Shown: positions 11,409 through 14,807 of the stretch, one piece after another
Position numbering within the stretch: the first letter of the stretch is position 1
Layout of the letters: each line of letters opens with the position of its first letter
Source: Romeriopsis navalis LEGE 11480
GTDB taxonomy: Bacteria > Cyanobacteriota > Cyanobacteriia > Leptolyngbyales > Leptolyngbyaceae
Assembly (NCBI RefSeq): GCF_015207035.1
Contig: NZ_JADEXQ010000061.1
Coordinates: forward strand, 1-38,670
DNA length: 38,670 nucleotides
Direction of reading: 5' to 3'
Notes under the pieces: model-generated
Databases searched by the model: none
Told to the model about the DNA's origin: nothing
Seen by the model: the letters and a program-made list of their open reading frames with translations, nothing else
Made by a program: the position numbers and the translations under genes

Positions 11409-11663
11409 ATGATCGAAAAACAAGCTGACGCTATTACTGGTGGTGATTGTGATGCGAATACCTACCAAGCCTCTGTCGCTGGTGAAGAAGCTGTTGGTGG
11501 GAGTGCATCAGTACCTGGCCAGAATGATACTGATCAACTGGCTGCCGCTGTTGGCATTGAAGTTACGCCCGAAATGCCGCTACAGCTCAGTGCAGATATG
11601 TCTGAACGCGATGACCACCGCTGGGAACTAAACCAGGCATCCGAAACTGGTCAGCAATTGTAG
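11409..11663 (+). CDS. DUF6335-like small acidic protein
   Basis: An 84-residue acidic protein reading AITGGDCDANTYQASVAGEE and AVGGSASVPGQNDTDQLAAA, with a C-terminal ERDDHRWELNQAS. The 'TGGDxDA...GEEAVGGSxxxPxQ' and 'RDDxRWELxxxS' blocks are the pattern I associate with the cyanobacterial DUF6335 family, whose function is unknown. There is no membrane segment. It ends 10 bases before the first MscS channel and is probably co-transcribed with it, which suggests a role in the same response. Confidence 0.65.
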   Translation: MIEKQADAITGGDCDANTYQASVAGEEAVGGSASVPGQNDTDQLAAAVGIEVTPEMPLQLSADMSERDDHRWELNQASETGQQL

Positions 11664-11673
11664 GACTTTAATC

Positions 11674-12594
11674 ATGGAAGACATTTCGTTAGCTGCTGCA
11701 TGGGACAAAATTGGCAATATGTTGGAATATAGCATTCGTCTTATTCCAAATCTTATTCTCGGTATCATTGTATTTGTCATATTTTGGATAATCGCTCGAA
11801 TTTTTCGGACTATCGTTCGTAAAATTGCACAGACCCGTAAAAAATCACGCAATGTTGGGCTTGTTTTTGGACGTTTGGCACAAGGGGGAATTATCATTCT
11901 CGGCATCCTTGTCGCAGCGACAATTGTCTTTCCATCATTCCAGCCAGCGGATTTGCTTAATACTCTTGGTATTGGTGGTGTCGCGATCGGTTTTGCATTT
12001 CGTGACGTACTTCAAAATTTTTTAGCAGGTATTTTAATTTTACTTACTGAACCATTTCAAATTGATGATCAGATTGTATTTAAGGGCTTTGAAGGTACAG
12101 TTGAACGCATTCAGACGAGGGCTACAATCATTCGCACTTATGATGGGCGTCGAGTCGTTATTCCAAATGCTGAGCTATTTACTAACTCCGTTACGGTCAA
12201 TACAGCCCACGAGCAACGCCGGCTACAGTATGACTTTGGGATTGGCTATGGCGATGATATTGCTAAAACGAAGAGACTCATCCTGGAAGTCCTAAACGGC
12301 AATGAAGATATTGTCAATCACCCAGCGCCAGAAGTGCTTGTTGTAGAATTAGCAGATTGTACGATCAATCTGCGTGCGCGCTGGTGGATTAATCCACCGA
12401 ATCGAGCTGAAGCACTTGATTCACGTGATCGTGTATTGGAAGAGGTTTGCAATACATTAGTTGGCCATGGCATTGACTTACCATTTCCAACTCAACAAAT
12501 TCTGTTTCATGATCAAACCGAAGAAACCGATGGCGATCGAACTCGTCAACGCGAAGGTTGGCCGGCTGGAAAGGTTGCAATGGATCAATCGTAG
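11674..12594 (+). CDS. MscS-type mechanosensitive channel (first of three)
   Basis: A 306-residue inner-membrane channel of the small-conductance MscS family, which opens when membrane tension rises after osmotic downshock. Helices are at about residues 18-40 (IRLIPNLILGIIVFVIFWII) and 68-90. The pore-lining TM3 is LGIGGVAIGFAFRDVLQNFL at about 99-118, glycine/alanine-rich as usual. It is followed by the beta domain (FQIDDQIVFKGFEGTVERIQ, then RRVVIPNAELFTN) and the C-terminal alpha/beta vestibule. Its length is close to E. coli MscS (286 residues). It lies just after the DUF6335-like gene and about 135 bases before the ATPase-like gene. Confidence 0.95.
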   Translation: MEDISLAAAWDKIGNMLEYSIRLIPNLILGIIVFVIFWIIARIFRTIVRKIAQTRKKSRNVGLVFGRLAQGGIIILGILVAATIVFPSFQPADLLNTLGIGGVAIGFAFRDVLQNFLAGILILLTEPFQIDDQIVFKGFEGTVERIQTRATIIRTYDGRRVVIPNAELFTNSVTVNTAHEQRRLQYDFGIGYGDDIAKTKRLILEVLNGNEDIVNHPAPEVLVVELADCTINLRARWWINPPNRAEALDSRDRVLEEVCNTLVGHGIDLPFPTQQILFHDQTEETDGDRTRQREGWPAGKVAMDQS

Positions 12595-12728
12595 ACCCTC
12601 CGAGTCGGCAGTCAGAAAGCCTATCAGAACGAAAATCATGCATAATTAGACGTAACTCAGTATTCGTAGATTATGCATCATTATCATTTTGTGGGATGAA
12701 TTAGCTATCGGTAGTATGGCTTTGTTTT

Positions 12729-13931
12729 ATGGAAAACCTCATTGCGCGTTTGAATGAGCGGTTACACAAAATCGCACTTTTTCGCTGGATTTGGCCCTCT
12801 AGTGATCAAGCGGAACAATCTGCACCGGCTGTTGTGCTAGAAGATTTGCCCAGTGCGATTCGCCATTGCTTACTCACGACAATTCAGCAACTCCCAACGC
12901 ATCCTGATATTCGGGCATATATCCGCAGTGAGGTGCTTGATCAACTCAGCCAGTGGCAGGGGAAATCGGAAAATGGCTGTAATTCGCTGGTATTTCTGGG
13001 ACGACCAACTTTAGAAATCAATCATTTGGTTCCAGATAGCTTGGCTGACTGGCTTGGGCAACAGATCTATGCGACTCCCGAAACGATTCATATTTTAGAT
13101 TGGCAAGTCCGTCCACCGAGTATCGATATACTACTATCGCAGCTTAAACAGTCGTTGCAGGTTGCTTTAAACGGCGATCGCAGTACAGTCAAAATTGTGG
13201 TCATTCCAAATTTGAACTGGTGCTTCCTTCGCAGTGCTGAAGGGCTCGATGGCATTGAATATCTTCAGCAACAAATTCAAGATAATCCGCAAATTTTCTG
13301 GATTATTGGGGCGGGGCAAGTTGCCTGGGAATATCTTAATTCTGTTCTACACATTGAGGCCTACTGCCCATTGCAACGGATAATTCCTGCATTATCCGGT
13401 GAACAGTTGCAACTATGGCTTAAGCCTATGGTGAGAGAGAATCAATTACAGTTTCCAGTACAGTCAATATCAGACAAACTCAATCAGGTAAGACAGCCTG
13501 ATGACGCTCAGGATCAAAGTACATCTTTAGAAACAGCATTCTTTGAGCGTTTAGCAGATATTTCTGCAGGGATTGGACTGATTACAACCCAAATATTCCT
13601 GCGATCGATATACCAAGACTCTGAGGCCGATTTACAACCATCTGAATCACACCAATTGATGCTTACTTGGCCAGCCACGCCCAGTTTCCCTGATATCGAT
13701 CGTGATGATAGCTATGTGCTGTATTCATTGCTCATGCATGGCGATTTGAGTTTGCCGCAATTAGCCGAAAGTCTTGGTGACCCGATTGAGCAAGTTAATG
13801 CCGCAATTCAGAACCTCCGGCGATTGGGCTTGATTGAACAGCAGGGGAGCATCCTGCAAGTTAATCCAATCTATTATTTGCCACTGTGCGATCGATTGAG
13901 TCGTGAAAATTTTGTTATTCCTCAAAAATAG
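12729..13931 (+). CDS. ATPase-like protein with C-terminal winged helix, between two MscS genes
   Basis: A 400-residue cytosolic protein of no family I can name. The middle looks like a degenerate P-loop NTPase fold. A Walker-B-like strand IVVIPNLNWCFLRSAEGLDG is at about residues 157-176, and FWIIGAGQVAWEYLNSV near 195-211 resembles a sensor-1 strand, but no GxxxxGK[ST] Walker A is visible. Residues about 335-395 (YVLYSLLMHGDLSLPQLAES, VNAAIQNLRRLGLIEQQGSI) form a winged helix. This could be an ATPase-derived regulator that senses or controls channel state, or a MarR-like regulator. It ends 12 bases before the second MscS start, so the two are clearly co-transcribed. Confidence 0.75.
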   Translation: MENLIARLNERLHKIALFRWIWPSSDQAEQSAPAVVLEDLPSAIRHCLLTTIQQLPTHPDIRAYIRSEVLDQLSQWQGKSENGCNSLVFLGRPTLEINHLVPDSLADWLGQQIYATPETIHILDWQVRPPSIDILLSQLKQSLQVALNGDRSTVKIVVIPNLNWCFLRSAEGLDGIEYLQQQIQDNPQIFWIIGAGQVAWEYLNSVLHIEAYCPLQRIIPALSGEQLQLWLKPMVRENQLQFPVQSISDKLNQVRQPDDAQDQSTSLETAFFERLADISAGIGLITTQIFLRSIYQDSEADLQPSESHQLMLTWPATPSFPDIDRDDSYVLYSLLMHGDLSLPQLAESLGDPIEQVNAAIQNLRRLGLIEQQGSILQVNPIYYLPLCDRLSRENFVIPQK

Positions 13932-13943
13932 GGTTAATTTGCC

Positions 13944-14807
13944 ATGATACAAAATTTTATTTTAGCCGAGTCAGCCACTGATGCTGCTAGCAAAACTAAG
14001 GAAATATTGGCCCAAGTCACAGCCTGGAAAATTACTCAAGCCTTTGTGATCTTGGCCTTGGCCTATGCTGCGATCCGATTAATTGATTGGCTCGTCATCG
14101 CACTCTCTGAAAAAGTTGCCAAGGAATGGCGACTGCGAGTCAAGCAATTTCTCCCATTTTTACGTATGGGCGTACTGACTAGTGCGCTCATCATATTAAT
14201 GAATTTATTTCTAAATCTCTCACAAGAAAATATATTTGCTGTCACCGGTACAGTTGCCGTAGCTGTAGGATTTGCCTTCAAAGATTATGTCAGCTCCGTT
14301 ATTGCAGGCATTATTGGCATTTTTGAAGCATCCTATCGTGTGGGCGATCGTGTCACGATTGGTGGGGAATATGGGGAAGTCATTGGATACGGACTACGGG
14401 GAGTACGCATCCAAACACCAACTGATAATATTGTTACGATCCCGCACAATCAGATTTGGACCAGCGGTGTCTCTAATGCCAATATGGGTCGGCTAGAAGC
14501 TCAAGTTGTAACGAGTTTTTTTCTAGCCCATCATGTTGATGTCGCATTGGTTGAAAAAATCCTATACCGCGTGGCACACACTAGCAAGTACACGCATTTG
14601 CAGTTGCCGATCGTTGTCATCATGGAAGATTGCCATTGGGGTAGTTTATTCAAACTTAAATGCTATCCGCTCGATGCACGGAACGAATTTCTCTATAAAA
14701 GCGATCTGACACGTCGGGCCAAATATCTCTTTAGCAAGCAGCAAATTTCATATCCTCAGCTGTTAAAGATTCCCGATACAGCTGCCTCGGCCACCGCGCA
14801 TCAATAG
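13944..14807 (+). CDS. MscS-type mechanosensitive channel (second of three)
   Basis: A 287-residue MscS-family channel, divergent from the other two in the window. TM1 is at about residues 30-52 (ITQAFVILALAYAAIRLIDW), TM2 at about 72-92, and TM3 is FAVTGTVAVAVGFAFKDYVS from about 98. The beta domain follows (YRVGDRVTIGGEYGEVIGYG, then NIVTIPHNQIWTSGVSN). The cytosolic C-terminal part is shorter and contains an unusual MEDCHWGSLFKLKCY segment. It has two cysteines, whereas MscS itself has none. It starts 12 bases after the ATPase-like gene, probably as the second gene of that unit. Confidence 0.93.
   Translation: MIQNFILAESATDAASKTKEILAQVTAWKITQAFVILALAYAAIRLIDWLVIALSEKVAKEWRLRVKQFLPFLRMGVLTSALIILMNLFLNLSQENIFAVTGTVAVAVGFAFKDYVSSVIAGIIGIFEASYRVGDRVTIGGEYGEVIGYGLRGVRIQTPTDNIVTIPHNQIWTSGVSNANMGRLEAQVVTSFFLAHHVDVALVEKILYRVAHTSKYTHLQLPIVVIMEDCHWGSLFKLKCYPLDARNEFLYKSDLTRRAKYLFSKQQISYPQLLKIPDTAASATAHQ

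Follow-up and report, generated by a model that had tools for sequence, protein, structure and literature searches.

We analyzed a window of 38,670 nucleotides (nt), i.e., positions 1 to 38,670 of contig NZ_JADEXQ010000061.1 from the cyanobacterium Romeriopsis navalis LEGE 11480, in which two genes for MscS-family channels (here named mscS1 and mscS2) flank a gene for a protein of 400 amino acids (aa) that we term mid. MscS channels are a textbook example of gating by membrane tension alone. As described in the first-pass annotation of this DNA, four open reading frames run in one direction on the + strand, separated by intergenic gaps of 10, 134, and 12 nt. Their interpretation as a single four-gene cassette was not sustained: none of the other loci examined shows the complete four-gene unit, and what is conserved is only the pair of mid and mscS2. 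Since this linkage is kept faithfully in other cyanobacteria, mid is probably a dedicated partner of the MscS2 channel. The features of the locus are given below (curated cut-offs: PF00924, 20.2 bits; PF21082, 21 bits; PF19861, 25 bits).

11409-11663, + strand: DUF6335 gene, 84 aa; 80.6 bits to PF19861, covering profile positions 42-116 of 124 only; judged to lie outside the system.
11674-12594, + strand: mscS1, 306 aa; 76.5 bits to PF00924 and 28.6 bits to PF21082; belongs to an MscS clade other than that of mscS2 and adjoins mid in one sub-lineage only.
12625-12646 and 12670-12691, no strand: inverted repeat in the mscS1-mid gap that may be an operator; 22-nt arms, 18 of 22 positions complementary, 23 nt apart.
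12729-13931, + strand: mid, 400 aa; predicted to comprise an amphipathic N-terminal helix, an AAA+-like core without a P-loop, a lid, a winged helix (residues 325-379), and a C-terminal helix with a conserved NNF-like tail.
13944-14807, + strand: mscS2, 287 aa; 68.2 bits to PF00924 and 24.5 bits to PF21082; separate MscS clade, obligate companion of mid.

Separate profile searches for mid and for the mscS2 clade were run against a phylum sample of 386 cyanobacterial genomes, which also spans other classes (58 of the 98 genomes in one draw fall outside the class of the window). A first mid profile, built from 5 proteins, detected mid in 25 of the 386 genomes at E ≤ 0.001, and a second one, built from 24 proteins, recovered the same 25 genomes at strong scores; 12 further genomes in which all matches were weak, partial, and no better than E 0.004 were left out of the count, as were, from another search, two weak matches that fall in other genes (loci L007, E 3e-4, and L008, E 3.9e-4). 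The mscS2 profile was made from channels adjoining mid, yet the search did not require mid, and at E ≤ 1e-50 it detected exactly the 25 mid genomes, which fall in 13 families. More specifically, copy numbers of the two genes are equal in all 25 genomes (G220 and G260 carry both genes twice, the remaining 23 once), and mscS2 lies directly behind mid on the same strand in 25 of the 27 mid copies. The exceptions are G106, in which one GST-like gene is inserted between the two, and G108, in which both genes are retained on one contig at a distance of ~420 kb (at ~723 kb and ~1143 kb).

In a class sample, mid was present in 21 of 131 genomes in a patchy distribution. Among 17 additional mid copies from this sample, 14 adjoin mscS2, one does not (G445), and two are undecidable at contig ends (G444 and G454), giving an adjacency of 14/15 for the decidable copies; in G457, one mid gene is apparently split by contig ends. 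Likewise, mscS2 follows mid in all 26 loci with named organisms, some of which share species with the sample genomes. Moreover, the distances among mid proteins correlate with those among mscS2 proteins (r 0.75 over 50 distinct adjacent pairs, after removal of 8 of 58 pairs with identical mid; 0 of 2,000 permutations as high). These data uphold the earlier suggestion that the middle protein is a companion of MscS, its homologues being nearly always found beside mscS. Across cyanobacteria, the gene order was conserved for mid-mscS2, but neither for the DUF6335 gene nor for mscS1 as a general member.

Several individual loci deserve separate mention. In G252 (L038, 129-2264), mid and mscS2 form a single frame of 711 aa with no stop codon between them, reflecting a fusion, a lost stop, or a sequencing error. 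In G465 (L158), stop codons occur inside mid beside an open mscS2, which may mean that the partner has decayed recently or that this draft genome of 730 contigs is misassembled there. G220 (L053, L060, and L061) carries tandem mid-mscS2 pairs preceded by a long MscS from another clade, and in two genomes that belong to different families the gene immediately upstream of mid encodes RTX-like glycine/aspartate repeats (L003, 521-1261; L159, 10709-11935). As for the window itself, its genome is the only mid carrier among 35 genomes of its family, and the nearest relatives of its mid (37-38% identity) and mscS2 (61-63%) are in Pleurocapsa-like loci (L009-L013); horizontal gain of the pair by this genome is therefore possible, judging from these sequence relationships.

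No Pfam or NCBIfam model reached its curated cut-off on mid, so that the protein does not turn out to be a known family with an unrelated role. An AlphaFold2 model built from 24 sequences (pLDDT 82.7, pTM 0.80) predicts an AAA+-like core, then a lid and a winged helix, with one more helix at the end. The AAA+ alpha/beta core fold is present in this predicted model, which aligned with NSF over 212 residues (VIA-align Z 14.6, root-mean-square deviation [rmsd] 3.4 Å); the first Foldseek match had a probability of 1.00 but a low TM-score of 0.35. A fold search of viral structures returned AAA+ proteins of the same general kind and none closer. In agreement with the first-pass description, the winged helix is predicted at the C terminus and a Walker A motif (GxxxxGK[ST]) is absent, being found in 0 of 24 members; the P-loop is missing since the helix after strand 1 (residues 86-91) begins within two residues. 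The Walker-B-like strand described there stood only in part: a strand occupies this position (model residues 155-159, assigned by strand and motif rather than by residue-level superposition), but its sequence in the window, IVVIPNL, lacks the Asp. At the position of the Walker B Asp, 20 of the 24 members have Pro and 4 have Ser, and the following position is Asp in two members (L014 and L016).

Thus, mid carries no sequence signs of an ATP site; by its defining motifs it is not an AAA+ ATPase and is probably a pseudo-ATPase. Invariant residues follow strand 3 (F166, L167, R168, and G172) and strand 4 (F190, W191, G194, and W200). As these lie near the expected AAA+ nucleotide site, the nucleotide-like pocket may be used for something else. 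The N terminus could fold into an amphipathic helix, and many members have Trp or Phe there. An anti-phage role was considered and set aside: PADLOC matches were confined to the winged-helix region of mid (CARF3 model, E 8.8e-5, residues 280-374), with none on the channels.

Both channels pass the cut-offs for the MscS beta domain (PF00924) and C-terminal domain (PF21082). The window mscS2 scored 452.5 bits against its clade profile, and in 25 genomes (5 with and 20 without mid; matches listed to E 1e-10), clade members scored 348-480 bits versus 73 bits or less for every other MscS listed. On these scores, MscS2 is a distinct MscS clade. Mean pairwise identity within it is 0.77 for transmembrane segment 3 (TM3), 0.71 for the beta domain, and 0.64 for the alpha/beta domain; the domains were delimited by hand, with no control clade for comparison. 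Modelled as a single chain, MscS2 gave a poor prediction (pLDDT 69.2, pTM 0.42). The whole genome contains 11 PF00924 matches, 3 of them on this contig; the third MscS gene of the contig (29509-30420, 303 aa) differs in clade from mscS2 (52.9 bits to the mscS2 profile).

The presence of mid is associated with that of ggpS, the gene for glucosylglycerol-phosphate synthase (TIGR02398 over its cut-off), which the window genome also carries. In the class sample, ggpS was found in 16 of 21 genomes with mid versus 9 of 110 without (Fisher p 2e-10); counted by genus, the figures were 13 of 16 versus 5 of 64 (p 1e-8), and in the phylum sample 20 of 25 versus 32 of 361. Among the named mid carriers, several have names that point to marine or saline habitats (Halomicronema, Roseofilum halophilum, Spirulina subsalsa, and Synechocystis salina), with the baseline uncounted.

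The genes upstream of mid behave differently from mscS2. DUF6335, a single-copy gene in the window genome that is present in 18 of 98 genomes, was rejected as a member of the system and, with it, of the proposed cassette: in 0 of the 17 other DUF6335 genomes does an MscS gene lie within ~1.5 kb on each side, and in tblastn against all loci examined, the window DUF6335 matched only its own locus and loci selected for DUF6335. Likewise, mscS1 was rejected as a core member. Directly upstream of mid, an orthologous gene (65-66% identity) occurs only in Waterburya (L010), Pleurocapsa CCALA 161 (L012), and G121 (L049), which share the order mscS1-mid-mscS2 with the window, and in a shortened form in L009, so that mscS1 is confined to one sub-lineage. 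MscS genes of yet another clade lie upstream in L014, L021, L059, and L060/L061; all these upstream genes, the window's and the L009 one included, are of a non-mscS2 clade and on the same strand as mid, and the remaining loci have none within the stretch examined. As for the 134-nt mscS1-mid gap, a structured RNA was not indicated (fold z only -1.07), and promoter-like and terminator-like sites were no more frequent than in shuffled sequence.

Outside cyanobacteria, a search of plasmids with the window protein gave no mid relative at E up to 1, and none of 9 pattern matches in viral contigs was confirmed. A two-peptide pattern scan of the species genomes of all bacteria and archaea returned 26 loci, all cyanobacterial; such a scan would miss distant kin, e.g., those with an intact ATP site, and genomes near that of the window may be omitted from it. 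We found no description of such an MscS partner in the full-text literature searched, most subscription journals being outside its scope, and no partner of the kind of mid is named in the portions of PMC12903740 and PMC4005912 that we could consult.

We consider it fairly probable, at somewhat better than even confidence, that mid is a dedicated cytosolic regulatory subunit of MscS2 in an osmotic-release system of salt-tolerant cyanobacteria. Support computed here comprises (i) the joint encoding and retention of the two genes; (ii) their matching copy numbers; (iii) the loss of the ATP-site motifs; (iv) the separate channel clade; and (v) the association with salt. The AAA+-like fold, the correlated distances of the two proteins, and the single frame in G252 are further points in its favour. 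In the mechanism that we propose, mid would sit at the inner membrane face by way of its amphipathic N-terminal helix and, as an AAA+-shaped protein without hydrolysis, would bind the cytoplasmic cage of MscS2, either as a ring or as single copies; its winged helix and its conserved C-terminal tail would serve as protein-contact surfaces. It would thereby set the tension threshold, closure, or inactivation of MscS2, so that compatible solutes such as glucosylglycerol would leave upon dilution and would not be lost in the steady state. A more far-reaching version, which we put forward tentatively and regard as rather doubtful, is a two-component channel in which a dead AAA+-shaped mid, perhaps a ring, docks on the MscS2 cage and gates or plugs its portals, the pair having evolved with glucosylglycerol-based salt tolerance; to our knowledge, no principle is established by which a cytosolic pseudo-ATPase gates an MscS valve.

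Several points weigh against the proposal of a regulatory subunit. The binding of mid to MscS2, its place, and its effect on gating are what we infer. In G445, no mscS2 lies within ~9 kb to the left or right of mid, the stretch to which the search was confined, and the single frame of 711 aa in G252 may result from the loss of a stop codon or from faulty sequencing, because an internal ATG of the channel remains. The distance correlation carries no species-tree control and comes from pairs chosen for adjacency, with the nearest neighbour agreeing in only 27 of 50; similarly, the largest moment of the N-terminal helix (0.26-0.77 in the 40 sequences listed) has no control set. The ggpS association carries no correction for phylogeny, and ggpS is missing from 5 of the 21 class genomes with mid. 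Finally, the matches of the winged helix to transcription regulators fit a DNA-binding reading equally well.

The last point leads to the rival account in which mid would sense the membrane or the state of the channel and, by means of its winged helix, would regulate transcription of its own operon. Weak C-terminal matches to CggR, TrmB, and other winged-helix regulators favour it (11 of 24 members match CggR_N, with E 5.1e-5 at best; several such families match weakly), as do a common Arg in the recognition helix (Arg occupies position 359 in 18 and position 365 in 22 of 24 members), a winged-helix charge that reaches +6 in a range from -6, and the inverted repeat upstream of mid, whose 18 of 22 pairs were matched in 0 of 300 shuffles. 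However, the Pfam and NCBIfam cut-offs for winged-helix families were missed (TrmB on the window protein, 18.7 bits versus 25.6), all 24 mid proteins carry a net negative charge (-6 to -32), as does the winged helix of the window protein (-5), and the repeat was looked for at the window locus only; we judge this account distinctly unlikely. We regard as unlikely, though less so, that mid is an assembly, targeting, or quality-control factor that acts in folding, membrane arrival, or oligomerisation of MscS2 and has no role in gating. The AAA+-like fold of mid and the strictness with which it pairs with a membrane protein would suit such a factor equally well, but AAA+ chaperones use their ATP site, which mid lacks (Walker A in 0 of 24), and the two other MscS clades found upstream of mid in some loci do not replace mscS2. 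That mid and mscS2 merely share an operon and a salt niche without direct contact would agree with the patchy distribution (21 of 131 class genomes) and the ggpS association; yet their copy numbers are equal, both are kept when unlinked in G108, and ggpS is kept with mid less strictly (20 of 25), so that we consider this very improbable.

Among the 386 genomes searched, the MscS2 clade never occurs unless its one soluble partner is also encoded (25 of 25), which makes it directly testable whether the cytosol can set the threshold of an MscS channel. The pair also has a bearing on cyanobacterial salt physiology, and mid adds a protein family, probably of pseudo-ATPases, for which no Pfam or NCBIfam model passed its cut-off.

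Among the closest known systems is the MscS family itself, as both channels carry MscS domains and the MscS2 profile matches the solved structures of MscS, MscK, and YnaI by sequence; unlike these, the MscS2 clade is found only in mid genomes, and a gene like mid is absent from the examined surroundings of E. coli mscS. With Orc1/Cdc6 and RuvB, which are AAA+ proteins with a winged helix, mid shares the order of core, lid, and winged helix (ORC/Cdc6 chains, Foldseek E 6.4e-7 and 2.0e-6; Orc1/Cdc6 2qby_B, VIA-align Z 13.4 over 266 residues, rmsd 7.0). These are fold matches only, with low TM-scores (0.33-0.41 in the matches quoted first), ~10-13% identity, and no Pfam core family; moreover, mid lacks Walker A and the Walker B Asp, and its neighbour is a channel. 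FtsZ is reported to bind the cytoplasmic domain of E. coli MscS (PMC4440785) and offers a case of an NTPase-related cytosolic protein on this domain, as we propose for mid; FtsZ, however, is a tubulin-like general cell-division protein, unlike a partner that is encoded beside, and specific to, a single clade of channels. In Synechocystis 6803, MscS proteins rise in salt-acclimated cells (Slr0639, 14.3-fold; PMC8670252), glucosylglycerol is released on down-shock, likely via mechanosensitive channels (PMC8670252 and PMC6753628), and a 2019 review counts eight MscS candidates and one MscL, of which only MscL was shown to act in down-shock (PMC6753628); in contrast to the pair described here, no partner protein is named in the sections of these two sources that we consulted. 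We rank the system as a variant of MscS systems, because no curated family searched fits mid, this partner is not an AAA+ ATPase by its motifs, and the channel is a plain MscS.

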